A stretch of DNA of 22,440 nucleotides from the IMG/VR virus record IMGVR_UViG_3300047371_000115, positions 1-22,440 of that record; one strand, 5' to 3'. This document shows, one piece after another, positions 11,948 through 22,423 of this stretch. Source of the DNA: a virus. The notes under the pieces are model-generated. The model had not been told where the DNA came from and did no database searches. It saw nothing but the letters and a program-made list of their open reading frames with translations. A program made the position numbers and the translations under genes. How positions within the stretch are numbered: the first letter of the stretch is position 1; each line of letters opens with the position of its first letter.

Positions 11948-12388
11948 TTAACTTAAAGAACCAATAACTTTATAAGTTCCGTTTTCGTTCTGTTCGTATT
12001 TCACGTTAAGTGATACGATTTTCTCTTCTCTTTCAAATTCGTCATGAGGTGTATCAACTGTTTTACCAGTAACAACACCATATCTGTTGAATTGAATATC
12101 GAATGAACCATTTCCTTCAGTGAATTCTAAGTCTGATTCACCTGTTTTGTTAAGTCCTAATAGAGAAAGTTTTGCTTCCATTTGTGCAACAGCAGCTTTT
12201 GGATTCAACCATTCTGATACTGCAGTTTGACCTAAGATTGCATTAACCTTAGATTTAACGTCTGCATCGTCTATATCGTGTGGTACTTTTTCTGAACTAA
12301 GTCCAGCAGCACCCACAAAAAATGCGTTAGAATCTGTAGGAATTTGACTTCCGCCCTCTTCCAAGATAAAGTTTTTAAATGTTTTCAT
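11948..12388 (-). CDS. putative internal capsid protein with T4-type targeting tag, 146 aa
   Basis: The N-terminus, MKTFKNFILE-EGG, closely resembles the T4 capsid-targeting sequence of internal protein III (MKTYQEFIAE-A), including MKT at the start, aromatic residues at the same positions and Glu at residue 10, where gp21 protease cuts after hydrophobic-X-Glu. The mature part would be about 136 residues, with a helical N-terminal half (about 40-80) and a beta-rich C-terminal half (FTEGNGSFDIQFNRYGVV...). No enzyme motif is seen. A GAGG ribosome site lies a few bases before the ATG. Loading into the prohead and proteolytic trimming are inference from the tag and from neighbouring late genes. 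Confidence 0.65.
   Translation of the reverse strand: MKTFKNFILEEGGSQIPTDSNAFFVGAAGLSSEKVPHDIDDADVKSKVNAILGQTAVSEWLNPKAAVAQMEAKLSLLGLNKTGESDLEFTEGNGSFDIQFNRYGVVTGKTVDTPHDEFEREEKIVSLNVKYEQNENGTYKVIGSLS
12359..12388 (-). other. capsid-targeting-like tag of the 146-aa protein
   Basis: Codons 1-10 encode MKTFKNFILE; the predicted prohead-protease cut follows Glu10. Compare the tag at 21192-21221. Confidence 0.55.
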
Positions 12389-12700: not shown

Positions 12701-13240
12701 TTACGCAACCTTTAAGATTGCTTTAAATGCTTTTTCAAAAGACTTTTTGTCTTTTTGAAGTAACTGTAGGTATTTAGTACGAATGGGTGTCTTAACCTTC
12801 ATTAAAACGTCATGAACTTTCACTGCATCCGTTCTTTTTACCTTTATTTTCTTCATATCGTCTGTTCTGACCTCACCATCTTTGGAATAGTCTTTGAACT
12901 TACGTAATTGCATTAACATTGCAGCGTCGGGTCGGTTTTGGACTCCCTTTGCTTTACTGTTAAATGCGTCAATAGCTCTATCAATGACTTCGTCCTCTTC
13001 TGCTTCTGCATACTTACCTTTTGCCATTTTAGAAATCTTGTCTAATTTTTGTCTGAGGTCTTTCTCGTTCTTTGCTTGTGATACTGCACGAGCAATCTTT
13101 TTATTACCCCCATCAGACATCATTCCAAAGTCACCAATCTTTTCCATGACTGCATTGACTTTTTTTGCGTCTGCTTTAACGTATCCGAGTTTCTTAAGTT
13201 TCTCTTTAAACGTTTTGTATCTTGCGTCTACTCTATCCAT
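12701..13240 (-). CDS. unknown basic helical protein, 179 aa
   Basis: The product is strongly basic (Lys-rich throughout) and appears all-helical, without cysteines, membrane segments or recognised motifs. It starts MDRVDARYKTFKEKLKKLGY and ends SFEKAFKAILKVA. Composition and location among putative internal proteins suggest DNA-binding or prohead-core function, which is inference. The ATG overlaps the previous stop as TAATG. Confidence 0.55.
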   Translation of the reverse strand: MDRVDARYKTFKEKLKKLGYVKADAKKVNAVMEKIGDFGMMSDGGNKKIARAVSQAKNEKDLRQKLDKISKMAKGKYAEAEEDEVIDRAIDAFNSKAKGVQNRPDAAMLMQLRKFKDYSKDGEVRTDDMKKIKVKRTDAVKVHDVLMKVKTPIRTKYLQLLQKDKKSFEKAFKAILKVA

Positions 13241-13569
13241 TAGTCTCTGTCCATGTCAATGACACCATCATAATTACCTCTTTCGACACCACCCATGTAA
13301 TCATACAATGCTCTTTCTGCATCTCTTAGATTTTCCCAAACTTTATTTGGGTTTCCACCTTTAGTTCCACCACCTGTTTCAGCAGTGTATTGCATGTCAT
13401 CTTGCATCTTTGCAACTTTATGAATTGCTTTAATCATGTTCTTAATGCTTTTAATTTCTTTCTTTCTGTCGAACTCTTTACCTTCAAACTTAGTTTTCTT
13501 ATACATTGGTATTAGACCTTCGTCTAAGTCTAACTGCATTTTACGATATGTTTCAAACAGAGATTTCAC
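13240..13569 (-). CDS. putative prohead-associated protein, 109 aa (GTG start)
   Basis: The gene starts at GTG 13569, just after the stop of the 765-aa gene, giving MKSLFETYRKMQLDLDEGLI. The first 17 residues resemble a longer version of the internal-protein tags (MK-x-hydrophobic-aromatic, ending LDE before Gly), so a prohead-protease cut after Glu17 is possible but weaker than in the two clear cases. The remainder is Lys-rich, with a helix (about 40-60) and a Gly-rich loop (TGGGTKGGNP), then DAERALYDYMGGVERGNYD. No known enzyme motif. It ends in TAATG with the next gene. Confidence 0.5.
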   Translation of the reverse strand: MKSLFETYRKMQLDLDEGLIPMYKKTKFEGKEFDRKKEIKSIKNMIKAIHKVAKMQDDMQYTAETGGGTKGGNPNKVWENLRDAERALYDYMGGVERGNYDGVIDMDRD

Positions 13570-13570
13570 T

Positions 13571-15868
13571 TTACTTCAATCCTTTAGTCAACATTTTATT
13601 GATTTGAGGTGTTGTGTAATCTCCGTTAGTAGGGTCTCCGTATCTTTCTTTACCGATTACTACTCTTAAGAAGTCATTTACTTTTTTCTTTGCACCTTTG
13701 ATTCTGACATGTTTACCTAAAACTGCAGATTTCAATCCAAATCTTCTTGCTTGTTTTGCAATTTCCATTCCGTGATAATTTTGGTCGGAAGGACTACTGA
13801 ACTTTTTGTTCTTTGGGTCTACAGTGATATCTTGAACTTCTTCAGTTAATGATTCTTCCCACATTTGTCTGTAAGAATCCATGACTGATTCATTTTTCTT
13901 TTTCTTTGCAATTGCAATTGCAGCTTGTTGAGCTCTTGATACTGCATGTCCTTCTACTTTAATTGGAGGAGATTTCTTAAATTTCAATCTTCCTTTTCCT
14001 CTTTTGAACTTTTCAACGATTACACTTGTATGGTAATCTACTGACTCTAATTTTGCTTTTACTGGAGATTTATCTTCTCTTTCATTTGGGTTATCTTTCA
14101 TATACCACTCCCTAGGCATTTGAACAATCTCGTGATTTTTGAATTTCAAAACACCACCAGTCCAATCTGATAATTGTTTCTCTAAAACGTCTCTTAGGTC
14201 TGTTCCTTCTTTAATCTTATTGTATTTCTTCATGCGGTCAAGATATTCTTTACCATGTAGACTTCCTTTGTCATAGAAACTTCTTTCTCCACCCTTAAGT
14301 GTAGTCTTGTATGCATCTATATCGTCTGAGAATGAATCGTCTCCAAAGTATTGGTCTGCGTCAATGTGCCATTTATGAACTTCTTGTGCAGTTTTGTAGT
14401 TTGCTTTTCGACTTAAGAACTTATTGAGTTTAACTAGTTTAGGATATGAATCGGGAACTGCCCATGTTCCTTCTGTAAGAGTTTCTTCTTGAACTTGAAC
14501 TGTTGGTTTGAACTTTCTCATGACTTCTTTGTGTTGTTTAGTCATGTCTTTTTTACCAGCATCGATTGCAAGTTCACCTTGACTCAATCCATCATCGTTA
14601 ATGTCTAGTTTGATTAACTGTTGTTTTTTAAAATAATCTAGTGCCTTTTGAGCAACTCTTTTATTTTTAAACATATACTCTACGTATTCTACCTTTTCTG
14701 TAATGTTGTCACCCATTTTCTGCATCATTCTTTGTGCAAGGTCAACAAGTGTAGAGATATTGGACTTCTCCATTCTCTCTTTGTTTTTGTCGTTTACTTT
14801 ACCATAGATTTGTGTAATCATTGAAGCAGTAAACATATCAACCATTATACCACCAACTTTCTTTGCACTCTTTTTGTCTACAATCTGTTGTAAATCAGGC
14901 ATAAGGTTCTTACCTTCTGTAAGATTTTCCATTAAACCTCTTAGATTACCACGATATTTGATTTTATCTTTTTTCTCTGAAACGTCTTCGTCTTGTCCGT
15001 GGGGTTTTGACCAACCACCACCATGGTCTTCTGCAGTTTTTAATTTACCTAATGCAACATATAAAGGTTGTAAGTCTACACCTCTGTCATAGTCATCTGT
15101 TTTACTATAAGTTTTGTCAATCATAAGACCGACTTTGTATGCACTTGAACCTTCTTCGGGTGTTGAGTAAACTGGTTTTTGTTTGATTTTGTTTTTCTTA
15201 CAATAATCATCAATCATTTTCTTTGCTTTTTCAAAGTCTTTTTTATTCTCAGGTGAAGTGATTCTATCTCCTCTACCACCTCTAAATTGAATGTAGAAGT
15301 CTACACATCTAGGATAAGTTGAATCTGAATAAGGTTTGTATTTCTCGTCAAGGATTGACATTATGAAGTCTTCTACATCGTCTTTAGTAGCAACTTCACC
15401 ATTTTGTGAAGCCCATGTTAGTAAATCATCTTCTACTTTTTTAGGTAAATCTTTTTGTTTCTTTTCATCTCTGAATGCGTCAATATGTCTCTTATGTTTT
15501 GTTATAAGTTTTTTCCAATCTCTGTCTCTTGGATACATTTTGATTACTTTCCTGTAATCTTCGTCTAACATATTGAATGAATCTTTGAATGATTCTTCGT
15601 TTGCAAACTGAAGTGCAGTTTGAACTTCTTTTGCTTTTAGGATTTTGTTTCCATAAAAGTCTTTAATAGCTTTGATTGCAATATCCATTGCACCACCAAG
15701 GTCTAATGCAACCTCGACTGCCTTTCTGACTACTTTATCTTTGACTTTGTTTCTACGGAAATAGGTTTGAATCTCACGTCCTGTAAGTTTTTGTTTTCCG
15801 TAAGGGCCGAGTGCATTGACTTTCCCGTCCTTATCTAATACTTTTTTAGCTTCTGCAAAGAGGTTCAT
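13571..15868 (-). CDS. large modular virion-associated protein / possible polyprotein, 765 aa
   Basis: I know pieces of this sequence as recurring modules in structural proteins of marine T4-like phages: NLMPDLQQIVDKKSAKKVGG with VDMFTASMITQIYGKVND (about 320-383), EGTWAVPDSYPKLVKLNKFL (467-486), HAVSRAQQAAIAIAKKKK (641-658) and a C-terminal domain (about 690-765). Four hydrophobic-X-Glu sites mark module borders: FAE6-A, LTE318-G, LTE466-G and LTE676-E. Cutting there would give pieces of about 312, 148, 210 and 89 residues. Lys-rich overall, no membrane span, no catalytic motif that I recognise. It follows the acidic-tail gene by two bases. A prohead-core or ejected-protein role is inference; an ordinary uncut structural protein is the alternative. 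Confidence 0.6.
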   Translation of the reverse strand: MNLFAEAKKVLDKDGKVNALGPYGKQKLTGREIQTYFRRNKVKDKVVRKAVEVALDLGGAMDIAIKAIKDFYGNKILKAKEVQTALQFANEESFKDSFNMLDEDYRKVIKMYPRDRDWKKLITKHKRHIDAFRDEKKQKDLPKKVEDDLLTWASQNGEVATKDDVEDFIMSILDEKYKPYSDSTYPRCVDFYIQFRGGRGDRITSPENKKDFEKAKKMIDDYCKKNKIKQKPVYSTPEEGSSAYKVGLMIDKTYSKTDDYDRGVDLQPLYVALGKLKTAEDHGGGWSKPHGQDEDVSEKKDKIKYRGNLRGLMENLTEGKNLMPDLQQIVDKKSAKKVGGIMVDMFTASMITQIYGKVNDKNKERMEKSNISTLVDLAQRMMQKMGDNITEKVEYVEYMFKNKRVAQKALDYFKKQQLIKLDINDDGLSQGELAIDAGKKDMTKQHKEVMRKFKPTVQVQEETLTEGTWAVPDSYPKLVKLNKFLSRKANYKTAQEVHKWHIDADQYFGDDSFSDDIDAYKTTLKGGERSFYDKGSLHGKEYLDRMKKYNKIKEGTDLRDVLEKQLSDWTGGVLKFKNHEIVQMPREWYMKDNPNEREDKSPVKAKLESVDYHTSVIVEKFKRGKGRLKFKKSPPIKVEGHAVSRAQQAAIAIAKKKKNESVMDSYRQMWEESLTEEVQDITVDPKNKKFSSPSDQNYHGMEIAKQARRFGLKSAVLGKHVRIKGAKKKVNDFLRVVIGKERYGDPTNGDYTTPQINKMLTKGLK

Positions 15869-15870
15869 GA

Positions 15871-16221
15871 TTAGTCCTCGTCTTTATCTTCGTCTTCGTC
15901 CTCATCATCTTCGTCCTCGTCATCATCATCGTCTGACTCGTCTTCGTCTGAATCGTCCTCGTCCTCTTTTTTCTTATCGATTGCTTTCTTCAAAGCAGGT
16001 GGTAACTCACCTTCTTTTACTTCTTCTTTCTTCTCAGAATCACCTTTCCAGTTTTTATCGATATAGTCGAAGAATTCTTTTTTCTTTTCTCCGTCTAATT
16101 CAGCGGGTGAAGTTACACCAAACTTTTTAAGTGTTGCCTGAAAGAAGTCTTCGTATTCTTTCGAGTTCTTTAAGATTTTCTTTGAATCTTCTATAAGTGA
16201 TTTAGGTAGGTCGTGTATCAT
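15871..16221 (-). CDS. protein with extreme acidic tail, 116 aa
   Basis: The first 85 residues form a compact helical region (LPKSLIEDSKKIL..., KKKEFFDYIDKNWKG) with the segment ELPPALKKAIDKKK that recurs in marine T4-like phage structural proteins. The last 31 residues are 28 Asp/Glu, encoded by GAN repeats. Such tails can mimic DNA, chelate cations or bind basic proteins; here the neighbours are strongly basic, so it may act as a scaffold or chaperone for them in the prohead. That is inference. The start overlaps the previous stop as ATGA. Confidence 0.6.
   Translation of the reverse strand: MIHDLPKSLIEDSKKILKNSKEYEDFFQATLKKFGVTSPAELDGEKKKEFFDYIDKNWKGDSEKKEEVKEGELPPALKKAIDKKKEDEDDSDEDESDDDDDEDEDDEDEDEDKDED
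15874..15966 (-). repeat. trinucleotide-type (GAN) low-complexity tract
   Basis: The coding strand is almost entirely GAY/GAR codons encoding the acidic tail of the 116-aa protein. Such tracts can change length by slippage, so tail length may vary among relatives. Confidence 0.75.
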
Positions 16222-17805: not shown

Positions 17806-18489
17806 CTACCAGTAAAAATTACCTCCGTCACTAAGACCTAACTGTTTTGCATAGTAAGGTAATCTACATGCCCAATATGATGCAGTAGTTTTATCTTTCT
17901 GTTGTGAACATTTATGTCTTGCAGCGAATGATTTCCTTGCTTTCTCGTTTCCGAGTTTTACTTTGAGACCTGTAGTGTCTCCCCATGTAATCTTTTTAAC
18001 TTTATCGGTTTGTGGGTCTTTAACATACACATAGTATTTCTTCGGCCCTCCGACTTTTGGTTTGTTGAGTTCGGGTTCTTTGTCTTCGTCTATAGATTCC
18101 CACTGAGGACAATCTAATGGTACTAACTCCCCTTCATATACTTCAAACTGTCCGATATCTGTATCTAAAATGTTCTTATCTACTTCTGTAAGTTTATATC
18201 TATCTTCCCCGACTAATTTACGTGCTTCATTGATTGTTTCAAAATACATCATAGAACCTAAACGAAATGGATTGTCTAGTAGATTGGTTTTTTCTTGTTG
18301 GAGTGTATCAAGTGTTTCATTGATTGCAATTTGAGAAAAGGTTTTCTTTGAATCGTGATATGCTTTTTGGTTTTCTTTTACGTATTTTTCTACTGCTTGA
18401 CCAGGCGTATCTTCTTGATATGCTTTTACTGTTTCGTCTGTACCCTGTTCGTGTACTCCGTTGTCGTGTTTATTTCCGTTTTTTGCCAT
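17806..18489 (-). CDS. structural-type protein with conserved C-terminal Arg/Cys domain, 227 aa
   Basis: The C-terminal third (PKKYYVYVKDPQTDKVKKIT..., KSFAARHKCSQQKDKTTASY and WACRLP) matches a domain found repeatedly in marine T4-like phage virion proteins (DUF5872-like from memory). Its Cys, His and Arg pattern could bind metal or nucleic acid. The N-terminal half has two sites, AINE58-T and FETINE88-A, that look like prohead-protease cuts; the second follows MMYF, echoing the MK-x-F-x-x-F tag. The gene overlaps the end of the HNH-containing gene by 20 bases. Virion location is inferred from domain company. Confidence 0.55.
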   Translation of the reverse strand: MAKNGNKHDNGVHEQGTDETVKAYQEDTPGQAVEKYVKENQKAYHDSKKTFSQIAINETLDTLQQEKTNLLDNPFRLGSMMYFETINEARKLVGEDRYKLTEVDKNILDTDIGQFEVYEGELVPLDCPQWESIDEDKEPELNKPKVGGPKKYYVYVKDPQTDKVKKITWGDTTGLKVKLGNEKARKSFAARHKCSQQKDKTTASYWACRLPYYAKQLGLSDGGNFYW

Positions 18490-19933
18490 TTGGTAAACAC
18501 CCCTTTTCTTTCAATTTTCTCATTCTTGGTTCTGACCTGTTGTATTTTTGTGATACAATTGATAGGTTAGACTTATCATTATTCATAGGATTGTTATCTT
18601 TATGGTGTACGTCCTTTCCTTTTATGTCTTTTCTATCTTTCAGACTTCTACGTGCCTCATTTCTCTTTGCACGTCTTTTAATTTGTTCGGGTTTAGAATG
18701 ATAACTTTCGTATTCTTTTTTGTAATCTCTATCTTCTTGAGCTCTTTTTACTTGGTCATCTGTTGGAGCACCTTCCTCTCCTTTCTTTCTCATTTTCTCA
18801 CCACGAGCTTTCTTTGCACGAATGTTATCCCAAAGTCCTTGTTCGTCAACTGATTCATTTTGTTTCTCAGCAGCCTTTCTAGCAGCGTCACGTTTTGCCT
18901 GAATCTGTTTGTTGATTACTTCTTTTTCTTTTTGTTTGTTGACCTTCTCTGTTTCTCTTTCGTGTCTATCAGTAAGTGCCTCTAACTCTTCAACATGTCT
19001 TTGTTTCATTCTTTCCATTTCTTCGACTTGTTTTGCTTTTAGAATTGCAGCGTCTTCGGCAGCACTTTCTTCTAATTCAACTTCTTCACCAAACTTAAGG
19101 AATAGTTTTCCTTTCTCCTGTTTCTTATCGGTGACTTTCATTCTAACATATGAACCCAACTGGTTAATCATTCCGATTCCTTTTTCGGGATTCTTTTCAT
19201 ATTCCTTTTCAACCATTTTCATTATGTTTTTGAAAATGTATTCTAAGATACTTCTCCAATCAGTGACAAGTTTACCTTCTTTTACTTCACTCATCATAAG
19301 TGTAGATAATTGATTGACCACTGTCGTTAACATAGGTGTAGGAATTGTAGATAGAACTCTGATTTGGTCTTTAGTTAAACCTTTAATTTTCTTGAGTTGT
19401 TTTTTGATATCAACTGCTTCTTCGATTGACTCTGATTTACCTTGTACTTTCTTTGCAAGGTCTTGGTCTGCACCACCCCATGTTCCTTTTGATTTTGTTA
19501 CAAAGGAATTAACGCGTGCATGTCCCCATTGTTCGGGTGTAGTGCCTGGTCTATGTCCACCTTTCCAAGCTGCAACTCCACGTTTGTATACTTGTTTTAG
19601 AATACCAACTGGCATTCCACTCTTGTCTGCTTTCTTTTGTAGAGATTTATCGGCTGCACCTTCTCCAAACATCTTCTTATACTTCTTAGTGTGTTGTGAA
19701 GGTTTTGTTTCTGCTTCTTTATCGCCTGGTGCTGGTTTAAATGCGTCTTCACCTTCTTTATCTTTGTTCTTATTGAAGTGTGAGGCACGTTTATCTTTTG
19801 TAGACTGAGACATTTCGTCTCCGTCTGCGTCTTTTGCATAATACTTCTTAGGTTGAGAGCCTTTCTTACCCTCAACTTCTTTATCTTGTTGTGTCTTACG
19901 TAACTTCTCTCTTATTATTTCTTCTAATAACAT
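18470..19933 (-). CDS. large modular virion-type protein with C-terminal HNH motif, 487 aa
   Basis: Modules in order: a region with KKYYAKDADGDEMSQSTKDK (about 29-48) and MPVGILKQVYKRGVAAWKGG to HARVNSF (about 107-144), both of which I know from marine phage structural proteins (DUF5824-like); a helical part (175-285); a charged coiled coil (about 297-356); NIRAKKARGEKMRKKGEEGA (370-389); and an HNH-like end with D441-V-H-H-K-D-N-N-P-M-N-N452 and NLS. The His-His/Asn pattern suggests an HNH endonuclease core. Hydrophobic-X-Glu sites at IEE172-A, LEE289-S and VDE364-Q fall between modules. CTAAATA precedes the ATG by 5 bases. Packaging and cleavage are inference. Confidence 0.6.
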   Translation of the reverse strand: MLLEEIIREKLRKTQQDKEVEGKKGSQPKKYYAKDADGDEMSQSTKDKRASHFNKNKDKEGEDAFKPAPGDKEAETKPSQHTKKYKKMFGEGAADKSLQKKADKSGMPVGILKQVYKRGVAAWKGGHRPGTTPEQWGHARVNSFVTKSKGTWGGADQDLAKKVQGKSESIEEAVDIKKQLKKIKGLTKDQIRVLSTIPTPMLTTVVNQLSTLMMSEVKEGKLVTDWRSILEYIFKNIMKMVEKEYEKNPEKGIGMINQLGSYVRMKVTDKKQEKGKLFLKFGEEVELEESAAEDAAILKAKQVEEMERMKQRHVEELEALTDRHERETEKVNKQKEKEVINKQIQAKRDAARKAAEKQNESVDEQGLWDNIRAKKARGEKMRKKGEEGAPTDDQVKRAQEDRDYKKEYESYHSKPEQIKRRAKRNEARRSLKDRKDIKGKDVHHKDNNPMNNDKSNLSIVSQKYNRSEPRMRKLKEKGCLPNGKKRK

Positions 19934-19937
19934 ACTA

Positions 19938-21221
19938 CTATTTAGTCCGTTTTGCGTCTAACTCTCTCTGTTTCCAGTTGAGTGCAAGTTTGTTTTTAGG
20001 GAATGAAGTAGACCAACCTAGTAGTTTACTGTATAATGAATTTGCTTTTTTGTCAAGTGTTGCAAGGTCATCATCATTCTTAATCTCTACAAAGTCTCTA
20101 CCAAAAATTGATTTATATTCCTTTGCATTCTTTTGTGCAGCGTCCCAATCACCTTTTACAATTTCGGGTGGTAGTTTTCTAGACCTTAAGTCATTTCTTT
20201 TTTGTGCATTGTCTAGACTTGCATTAACAAATACCATTTTGTATTCGTATCCTAATGTGTCTAACATTTTTTTATAGTTCTTAATCTTAGTTGACTTTGC
20301 ACTTGTAGTGTCAAAGATAAGACCTAGTCTTCCTTCGATATATGCATCTAAGTTTTTACCTGTAATCTTTTTTGCTTTTGCACGGATAGGGTCTACTTTA
20401 TCAAAGTCTGCACTTCTAAGGTCAAGTGACATTCCTGCTTTCTTTAGTCCGTTCTCAAATGCTTTATCAGTGTTGACCATTTTTAAACCAAGTGCAGTCA
20501 AAGCTAATTTCTTTACAACTGCAGATTTACCACTGCCTGGCCCACCACTTAAGAAAACTGCTTTGAAAGTGCCTGGGTCATAGACTCCTTCTTGTATCAA
20601 ATCTTCTACCATGTAGTGTGGTAGTGTTCCTTCTGCAATACCCATTCCTTTACGAATGTCGTTGTATAGTTTCTGAATCAACCCTTTATTCTTTGTTGGA
20701 ACACCTAGTTTAAAATTATCAAAGTCACCCTTCTCTGCATATCCTCTGAGTTTACTTGCAGACATTCCACTGACATCATCTGCATCGGGGTCTCTCTCAC
20801 CAGCAGATATGACATTGATTTCGTCAAATTTATAGAATCCGTGTCTTGCTTTTACACCATTGTATTTGTTTAGTAGTGTTTCAAATTCTCTAATTCTATC
20901 TGACCCAACAACCATAGAGATTCTTTTGTATTTTTTCTTGTGTAATTCTGTTGCAATCTCAAATACTGTTCTTGCATTTACGTCTGCAACAATTTTTCCA
21001 AAGAAATTTCTGAGGTATTTGATTTTATCTTTATGTGATAGTGGATTTTTTACCTTGTCATTTGAGTGTGAGGTAAATAACAGAACGTCATCACCTTTTG
21101 ATTCTTTCTTAAGTTTTGCAACTAACTTCCCATGACCTGTTGTAGGTGGATTGAATCTACCAAAGGTAAACACTGCACCCTTGTCTTTTGCCTCTGTTAG
21201 GAATGAATTAAATGATTTCAT
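19938..21221 (-). CDS. nucleotidyltransferase-kinase fusion with capsid-targeting-like tag
   Basis: From ATG 21221 the protein has 427 aa. Residues 1-10, MKSFNSFLTE, match T4 internal-protein tags. Residues 16-195 form a HIGH-type nucleotidyltransferase: GRFNPPTTGH (21-30) and SGMSASKLR (151-159) are the nucleotide-binding motifs seen in NMN adenylyltransferases and relatives. A linker with IAE197-G and IQE211-G follows, then a P-loop kinase (GGPGSGKS 226-233; NTDKAFE; GLIFDTTSAKS) of the zeta-toxin/polynucleotide-kinase type. NTase plus kinase recalls NadR, so NAD salvage is one option; nucleic-acid end repair is another. Start chosen for its TAATG junction; an ATG four codons upstream would bury the tag. 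Confidence 0.8.
   Translation of the reverse strand: MKSFNSFLTEAKDKGAVFTFGRFNPPTTGHGKLVAKLKKESKGDDVLLFTSHSNDKVKNPLSHKDKIKYLRNFFGKIVADVNARTVFEIATELHKKKYKRISMVVGSDRIREFETLLNKYNGVKARHGFYKFDEINVISAGERDPDADDVSGMSASKLRGYAEKGDFDNFKLGVPTKNKGLIQKLYNDIRKGMGIAEGTLPHYMVEDLIQEGVYDPGTFKAVFLSGGPGSGKSAVVKKLALTALGLKMVNTDKAFENGLKKAGMSLDLRSADFDKVDPIRAKAKKITGKNLDAYIEGRLGLIFDTTSAKSTKIKNYKKMLDTLGYEYKMVFVNASLDNAQKRNDLRSRKLPPEIVKGDWDAAQKNAKEYKSIFGRDFVEIKNDDDLATLDKKANSLYSKLLGWSTSFPKNKLALNWKQRELDAKRTK
19939..19945 (-). promoter_or_regulatory. late-type promoter box (CTAAATA)
   Basis: The minus strand reads CTAAATA, five bases, then the ATG at 19933, the same geometry as before 11494. It lies within the end of the nucleotidyltransferase-kinase gene. 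No Shine-Dalgarno is seen. Confidence 0.5.
20589..20630 (-). other. interdomain linker with two prohead-protease-like sites
   Basis: Residues 198-211 of the NTase-kinase are bounded by IAE197-G and IQE211-G. Cuts at both would release separate nucleotidyltransferase and kinase enzymes and a 14-residue peptide. Confidence 0.4.
21192..21221 (-). other. capsid-targeting-like tag of the NTase-kinase
   Basis: Codons 1-10 encode MKSFNSFLTE followed by Ala-Lys. The T4 IPIII tag is MKTYQEFIAE followed by Ala, cleaved after Glu10 by gp21. Length, MK start, aromatic residues at 4 and 7, hydrophobic residue at 8 and Glu at 10 agree. Confidence 0.6.
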
Positions 21222-22423
21222 TACTTGTCCCATGCTTTTTGTGCAGTAAAGTTGTTGAATGCAAACTCCATTCTGTCTACGAGTTTAACTGCACTTCCTG
21301 TTTTATCTATTGCAACGTATCCTTCGGGGTTAACTACCTCGAAACCATTTGCAGTCTTTTTAAAAGTTCCGATACTCTTTACTCTATTTAGGGATTCTAT
21401 AATCATTTGTTTTGCAACAACCAAATGTCCCATAAATGAAGTAAGATTGGTTATCATTTTCTTTAAACTTCTAAGTTCGTTATAGAGTTGTTCACCGATT
21501 TCTCTTTTGATTTCTTTTGTCTTTTCTGTTTTGACTTTACCAACTACTTTGTCTCTCCAATAGTTCTCAAAGTGTTTCATGTATCCGTCATAAGTTGGTT
21601 TGTATGAACCACCTCTAATAAGTGTATTACAATATGTTTTGTATGATGCACCAGCACCTTTTCTACCTATCTCTTCCTGTATCTTCATGAACTTTTGTAG
21701 GTCATTCTTTTTGATTCCGTGGAATGCTTTACCTGTTTTAGATAACTCTTGTGTAAGTGCAAGTGTTTCTTTTGCAGTCATTGAACCTTGACCACTGACA
21801 TCTTTATAACTTGCGTCGTCAATCCATACGTCTGAATTGTTTCCTAGTTTGGATATGTTTGCACCAAAACTTGCAGATAGGTCTTCTATAGTTCCACCAC
21901 TATAGGTAGTGTGAAATACGATTCCCATTTTAGAGTTTGCAATCTTTTTACCTAAGTCTGATTCTATATTGACTGCATACATGATTGTATTGGGTTGGAA
22001 TGTGACAAAAGACTGTCCGTCAATCTTCTGCATTTTCTTATCGTTGGTATACATTAAATCACCTTGCATGATTGTATTCCAAGATAGTTTAGATAAACAC
22101 TGAAATGAAGTCAAGAATTTTTCTTTCAATGCACCACTTAATTCGTCTGCTTTTTTGATTTCTGATTCTGAAGTATAAAATTTGGGTTCTTTGTTAAAGA
22201 GTGATTTCTTTGCAACAAAGAATTGATTAGTTTCGGGGTGTAAACCACAAAAGATAGCAGGAGCTCCGTCCCACTTAACAGTCATATTGACACTTGAATT
22301 AGAGTTTCCTTTCAACATGTCTCTAAGACCCTGTAAAAAGTTTATAGCACCACGTCCACCATCAATCCCTTGATTGATAATCTCGTCTTCTAAGTGTTCT
22401 AAATGTAGATTTTTTGCACCCAT
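21221..22423 (-). CDS. nucleotidyltransferase / RNA-DNA ligase-like protein, 400 aa
   Basis: The family is common but unnamed in marine T4-like phages. It carries an ordered set of motifs like those of covalent nucleotidyltransferases (ligases and capping enzymes): K50-W-D-G53 (motif I, adenylated Lys), G121-D-L123 (motif III), GIVFHTTYSG (about 167-176, IIIa-like), E367-G-Y-V370 (motif IV) and K380-L-V (motif V-like). A basic helical region (about 280-345) is inserted before motif IV, which is a large separation compared with classical ligases. It lies directly before a kinase-containing gene in a TAATG junction, recalling kinase-ligase repair pairs. Ligase activity is inference. No Shine-Dalgarno; TATAAT ends 7 bases before the ATG. 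Confidence 0.6.
   Translation of the reverse strand: MGAKNLHLEHLEDEIINQGIDGGRGAINFLQGLRDMLKGNSNSSVNMTVKWDGAPAIFCGLHPETNQFFVAKKSLFNKEPKFYTSESEIKKADELSGALKEKFLTSFQCLSKLSWNTIMQGDLMYTNDKKMQKIDGQSFVTFQPNTIMYAVNIESDLGKKIANSKMGIVFHTTYSGGTIEDLSASFGANISKLGNNSDVWIDDASYKDVSGQGSMTAKETLALTQELSKTGKAFHGIKKNDLQKFMKIQEEIGRKGAGASYKTYCNTLIRGGSYKPTYDGYMKHFENYWRDKVVGKVKTEKTKEIKREIGEQLYNELRSLKKMITNLTSFMGHLVVAKQMIIESLNRVKSIGTFKKTANGFEVVNPEGYVAIDKTGSAVKLVDRMEFAFNNFTAQKAWDK

Follow-up and report, generated by a model that had tools for sequence, protein, structure and literature searches.

A predicted prohead-protease polyprotein of exchangeable modules in a marine T4-like phage

What is a 765-aa protein that matches no family in Pfam, PHROG, NCBIfam or PADLOC, and does the short motif that recurs along it divide it into separate products? 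The protein is encoded in the window, by which we mean the whole 22,440-nucleotide stretch analysed from IMG/VR record IMGVR_UViG_3300047371_000115, and the first-pass annotation had read it as a polyprotein cut internally in the prohead at three LTE sites and FAE6. The gene boundaries on which that reading was based are correct, to which we add that the gene lies on the minus strand (Table 1). A full-length tblastn of the protein against 50,697 isolate phage records gave no match, and the link to isolates was therefore drawn via the proteins encoded nearby and the modules within them. In a comparison of major capsid proteins the clade is nearest Melnitz, HTVC008M and Mosig, and a syntenic cluster of tagged genes is present in both Melnitz and HTVC008M; the phage itself is probably a marine T4-like one whose near relatives include Pelagibacter phage HTVC008M and Methylophilales phage Melnitz.

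Modules of the 765-aa protein and their exchange among relatives

Table 1. Features of the 765-aa gene and its neighbours in the window; a slash marks a join or a putative cut.
Feature	Positions	Strand	Remarks
765-aa multi-module protein	13571-15868	minus	88 kDa, pI 9.4; predicted prohead-protease polyprotein
N-terminal stretch MNLFAE, residues 1-6	15851-15868	minus	predicted short capsid-targeting propeptide
Module 1a, residues 7-103	15560-15850	minus	helical; terminates at LDE103 (15568-15560)
Module 1b, residues 104-175	15344-15559	minus	terminates at LDE175 (15352-15344)
Module 2, residues 176-318	14915-15343	minus	terminates at LTE318 (14923-14915)
Module 3, residues 319-391 (GKNLMPD...)	14696-14914	minus	terminates at ITE391 (14704-14696)
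Module 4, residues 392-466	14471-14695	minus	terminates at LTE466 (14479-14471)
Modules 5-7, residues 467-676 (GTWAVPDSYPKL...; AVSRAQQAAIAIAKKKK...)	13841-14470	minus	terminate at LTE676 (13849-13841)
Module 8, residues 677-765 (EVQDITVDP...)	13574-13840	minus	C-terminal module
NTase-kinase fusion	19938-21233	minus	tag MKSFNSFLTE/A; internal border LIQE/GVYDPG
487-aa protein, DUF5824 and HNH_3 modules	18470-19933	minus	joins ESIEE/, VELEE/, SVDE/
Small neighbour MKSLFETYRKMQLDLDE/GLIPMYKK	13240-13569	minus	
146-aa protein	11948-12388	minus	T4-like tag MKTFKNFILEE/GG
Ligase-like KWDGAP protein	21221-22423	minus	window end may remove its tag
116-aa protein	15871-16221	minus	C-terminal tail strongly acidic, rich in Asp/Glu; lies immediately upstream of predicted polyprotein gene

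Searches of IMG/VR yielded 17 direct relatives (L001 and L002 are the same over their shared stretch), while single-module searches led to about 200 loci. The relatives' proteins that contain pieces of the window protein show some 45 module orders or combinations, with module 1a common to 88 proteins of the fetched set and module 3 having 169 relatives in viral contigs. Module 2 is missing from L006, L008, L012 and L014; the joins read IIDE/GTLTE/GKNLM or IIDE/GTLSE/GKNLM in L006 and L008, and ILDESTISE/NYRV in L012, while other joins are NIAE/EVNLQE/GTWAVPD in L008 and IISE/GTWAVPD in L017.

Neighbouring genes and their homologues are fused and joined in several further ways. In Melnitz, one fused protein has the DUF5824 module after the nucleotidyltransferase (NTase), and the phrog_3041 'cytidyltransferase' profile (678 positions) spans the NTase and DUF5824 modules, which are separate genes in the window (18470-21233, minus strand), so that the family name covers a fused, possibly cut protein. 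The GLIPMYKK module is internal in L009, after TTVDLDE/, and homologues of the KWDGAP protein in Melnitz and HTVC008M carry the tags MLTLINFSKYITE/ and MYNDLLVE/, respectively. Two Melnitz proteins annotated as 'hypothetical' (L211:10521-11276 and L211:9132-10520) have joins of the same kind, EEVELDE/GYSPKEIK... and NESLAE/.

An AlphaFold2 model of the 765-aa protein, made with 20 sequences, has a mean pLDDT of 64 and a pTM of 0.27, which points to separate units in an arrangement that is not fixed. Modules 2 and 5 are predicted at a pLDDT of about 80-90, and module 2 is modelled as a ferredoxin-like alpha/beta core (residues 189-287; VIA-align Z up to 7.2) with a disordered tail (290-319); this predicted arrangement is a common one and tells no function. 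A Foldseek search of the model against the PDB and viral models gave no match at E<=0.001. The low-confidence stretches include residues 1-25, 92-114, 176-184, 290-319, 382-397, 418-441, 456-468 and 601-647.

Placement of the motif at module borders

The translation bears out LTE at residues 316-318, 464-466 and 674-676 and FAE ending at residue 6. LTE occurs three times against 0.16 expected by shuffling (P = 0.0004), and the repeated context that had been pointed out, TE followed by G or E, recurs at all three (P = 0.002 by shuffling). The wider class [LI]xE, at nine occurrences against 5.8 expected (P = 0.11, shuffling), is not in excess, making the motif count weak evidence and placement the question. 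Two other lines were set aside: motif density, since [LI]xE is no commoner in this gene cluster than in the rest of G001 (a 146-kb contig with a relative of the 765-aa gene), and a genome-wide search for tags, whose simple pattern is too loose, being present in 46 of 182 G001 ORFs, and hence weak when taken alone.

Placement was assessed at five module starts (1b, 2, 3, 5 and 8), counting mutually dissimilar upstream contexts only. [LIVMF]xE stands exactly at the start of module 1b in 7/7 contexts, of module 2 in 5/5, of module 5 in 7/7 and of module 8 in 7/7, and lies within two residues of the start of module 3 in 23 of 24; the strict [LI]xE is exact in 4/7 (1b), 4/5 (2), 6/7 (5), 5/7 (8) and 11/24 (3), and because the sequence contexts have some ancestry in common, the P values given here overstate independence. 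The background per position is 1.2% for [LI]xE and 2.3% for [LIVMF]xE, and the tested starts are virtually free of the control motifs [LI]xD, [LI]xK and [KR]xE. LTE318, LTE466 and LTE676 are thereby real module borders, as the first-pass annotation had supposed: modules 3, 5 and 8 follow unrelated sequence in numerous other phage proteins, with [LIVMF]xE at the join. Further motif-bearing borders lie at LDE103, LDE175 and ITE391, and the border signal thus survives in a different form, as [LI]xE rather than LTE alone and with at least six border sites. Some borders are without the full motif; the RDYKKEY module mostly has xEE only, and at the start of module 7 the motif is usually missing, for which reason modules 5-7 may stay joined. 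Across joins selected for Glu at P1, P3 is L, I, M, V or F with many codons and P2 is free to vary; a hydrophobic P3 that is kept while P2 and the codons change indicates selection on the protein and not on a DNA word.

Because the module borders had first been set with the window protein in view, two border-independent tests were made. Across 76 non-redundant proteins, BLAST homology breaks have [LI]xE at a distance of 3 residues or less 2.1 times as often as random places do (z = 10), with [LI]xD at 0.99. A second, separate set was drawn from these loci: 172 non-redundant proteins without any of the modules, containing 490 breaks. It gives 3.3-fold for [LI]xE (z = 13) and again 0.99 for [LI]xD. 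[LI]xD, [LI]xK and [LI]x[ST] range from 0.8 to 1.0 at breaks and [DE]xE is near 1.1, while [KR]xE rises less than [LI]xE, 1.3-fold in the first set and 1.7-fold in the second, an effect to be expected of E-rich linkers. In a strict paired test, which requires [LI]xE at the BLAST edge in both proteins, 6-23% of cases qualify, against about 1-3% at interior positions; the low value reflects the imprecision of BLAST edges.

The predicted structure agrees with this placement. Seven of the nine [LI]xE sites (103, 175, 314, 318, 391, 466 and 619) are in or beside predicted disordered linkers, IVE619 being in a disordered stretch, and the nine sites have a mean pLDDT of 45, whereas the mean for randomly chosen Glu residues is 59 (P = 0.01). 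LTE676 falls between a helix and a strand (pLDDT 62), outside the low-confidence linkers, and IKE554 lies within a folded, well-predicted module and is not conserved. Burial in globular domains, named beforehand as an outcome that would speak against the polyprotein, is not found for the three LTE sites.

Inside the modules, the motif is scarce. Six module cores contain 5 [LI]xE against 46 expected by shuffling, and the family-weighted ratio in the cores is 0.14, compared with a mean of 1.17 for random stretches from other G001 genes; a value this low is reached by only 0.7% of random six-piece sets (P = 0.007, from six families, a small number). Such avoidance is what selection against cuts within the products would predict. 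The folded enzymes of the cluster do contain internal [LI]xE, for example the NTase (homologue sites 114 and 165), and the motif is therefore not sufficient for cutting.

Avoidance also bears on whether the protein might be a scaffold or core component, degraded by gp21 to small peptides that clear the prohead and have no later role. The T4 core proteins gp22, gp67 and gp68 each undergo several cuts at this motif, and the 765-aa protein, which is basic and partly helical, would suit such a part. Its module cores, however, are conserved, partly folded and avoid cut sites, the opposite of a protein made for shredding; a separate gp22-like scaffold gene adjoins the capsid gene in G001, Melnitz and HTVC008M, and sister genes with the same tags encode enzymes. 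We consider a scaffold role quite unlikely.

Tags, prohead protease and predicted products

If the borders are cut sites, a module encoded by its own gene should start where the internal copy would be released, and the kinase of the cluster allows this to be seen. In HTVC008M it has its own gene, starting MIPFILKE/GLYDPGIFKA, and the L078 kinase gene starts MDILNYKEDDLVLDE/GVNDPG; in the window the kinase is fused behind the nucleotidyltransferase in one ORF, as ...MVEDLIQE/GVYDPG. [LIVMF]xE stands exactly at the kinase module start in 27/27 internal contexts. Module 8 likewise follows the gene-start tag MKKLSEIRE/ or MKKLSDIRE/ in L084/L085 (MKKLSEIRE/EVANITV) and has [LIVMF]xE in all 17 of its internal contexts, and the GKLV module, with the gene-start tag MAAKKFNEIKKELPLEE/GKLV, has it in 27 of 28. 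The internal site thus corresponds to the position of the stand-alone protein's would-be mature N-terminus, and this equivalence of tag and internal site is, at the level of sequence, the strongest single comparison. The likeness of the LTE sites to the NTase-kinase tag (MKSFNSFLTE/A) that had been proposed is real, and the T4 IPII/IPIII tag MKTYQEFIAE/A resembles both this tag and MKTFKNFILEE/G of another window neighbour. At the window protein's own N-terminus, MNLFAE/AKK, six residues precede the putative cut, where T4 tags have 10-19, and F at P3 places FAE6 outside the strict [LI]xE consensus; the relatives begin MNLFYE/, MNLFHE/, MNIFQQIKE/ or MNIFQELKE/.

These comparisons can be set against the view that the modules make up one stable multi-domain protein and escape cutting altogether, the [LI]xE linkers serving as hinges or as preferred recombination points. 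Swapping of modules at linkers is common in phages, the border linkers are disordered in the model, and the mild enrichment of [KR]xE at breaks would fit such linkers. The enrichment is nevertheless specific to hydrophobic-x-E, the varying codons at the joins leave no DNA word that would drive recombination, and [LI]xE is avoided in cores and recurs at the ends of the tags of stand-alone copies. An uncut protein is, in our estimate, unlikely.

A candidate protease is encoded by the clade. G001 has an S77 gp21-type prohead protease (E = 1e-38), and Melnitz and HTVC008M have a prohead protease by their annotation; the GELxHP and GVSSRG stretches of the clade protease agree with T4 gp21. The protease gene is absent from the 22-kb window, which is a fragment. 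T4 gp21 has the specificity L/I-X-E (PMC9026906), and the T4 major capsid cut FLTE/A aligns with NLEE/A in G001, FLSE/A in Melnitz and FLGE/I in HTVC008M. With L and E invariant at this aligned site, the clade appears to retain the gp21 specificity.

Border placement, motif specificity, core avoidance, tag equivalence, disorder at most sites and the clade protease all agree with the polyprotein reading offered earlier, and from them we infer the cutting and its location in the prohead. We put the probability at roughly 0.7 that the 765-aa protein is a polyprotein of head-internal, host-delivered proteins processed by a prohead protease of the T4 gp21 type. Its short N-terminus would act as a capsid-targeting tag that brings the precursor into the prohead core, where the gp21-type protease would cut after LDE103, LDE175, LTE318, ITE391, LTE466 and LTE676, and probably after FAE6. 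Cuts at the six borders would give products near 10.9, 8.7, 16.5, 8.2, 8.8, 24.5 and 10.0 kDa, most of them thus between 8 and 17 kDa, the size range of the T4 internal proteins. By prediction they are for the most part basic, with pI values reaching 10.0, though modules 1b and 7 are close to neutrality; once freed, they would remain with the DNA in the head and be delivered to the host, as are T4 IPI-III and Alt. Because each border would be a self-contained cut site, modules could be lost, gained and reordered without harm to their neighbours. The nucleotidyltransferase, kinase, DUF5824 and HNH modules nearby make early roles directed at nucleic acids or nucleotides plausible.

The modules might instead be cut and their products kept as structural parts of the head, such as an inner-shell lining, and never delivered. 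T4 gp24 (MAKINELLRE) and other shell proteins of T4 likewise shed a tag that ends in [LI]xE, but modules are replaced faster between close relatives than is typical of shell proteins, and the neighbours with the same tags bear nucleotidyltransferase, kinase and HNH modules. This we regard as very unlikely.

Extending the delivered-polyprotein reading to its neighbours, we hold it moderately probable that in marine T4-like phages infecting SAR11, OM43 and related hosts the gene cluster as a whole encodes capsid-targeted, protease-cut polyproteins with modules swapped at [LI]xE joins, a combinatorial cargo by which each phage would load a different set of small proteins and enzymes into its head for its host. 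The polyprotein reading offers a testable function for many genes that lack annotation in phages common in the ocean, and the rule of a cut after [LI]xE at borders predicts exact product ends. Prohead maturation would extend from tag trimming and scaffold clearing to many delivered proteins per precursor, with domain shuffling using the protease sites as its joints, and the cultured relatives Melnitz and HTVC008M make the polyprotein reading directly testable.

Comparison with known systems

Several known systems share part of this arrangement. In the giant phages SPN3US and phiKZ, ejection proteins are matured by the prohead protease, with several cuts per protein, but their head proteins are cut at AxE or S/A/GxE, and no polyprotein of shuffled modules with several products has been described from them; of the 14 sites mapped in SPN3US, 13 serve to take off an N-terminal propeptide and one a C-terminal propeptide (PMC10052503). 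The polyvalent proteins of phages and conjugative elements are many-domain mosaics thought to enter the cell with the DNA, and were likened to polyproteins by their describers, who proposed an embedded metallopeptidase domain as the cutter (PMC5512222). In the 765-aa protein, by contrast, no peptidase domain was found, and no known polyvalent domain or embedded metallopeptidase at the Pfam cut-off; its cutting would be done in trans by the prohead protease. The open-access literature, which cannot prove absence, gave no further phage polyprotein cut by a prohead protease, and a keyword check of the pelagimyophage and Melnitz papers found no mention of one.

The T4 proteins gp22, gp67 and gp68 resemble the 765-aa protein in having several [LI]xE cuts each. 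They are scaffold proteins whose peptides mostly leave, however, whereas the modules described here are conserved, partly folded and avoid the motif; no PHROG match places the protein among T4 core or scaffold proteins, and its gene sits in the NTase-kinase cluster. The T4 internal proteins IPI-IPIII and Alt, to which no homology was found in PHROG, Pfam or the tblastn of 50,697 phage records, have likely counterparts here in the relatives' N-terminal tags ending in [LI]xE, the gp21-type protease of the relatives, the predicted small basic products and a fast-changing gene content. They differ in yielding one mature protein per gene, where the 765-aa gene, with putative cut sites at the majority of its module borders, would give about seven. 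On the best reading of the sequences, the system would work like T4 internal-protein maturation, as a variant with a multi-product precursor.
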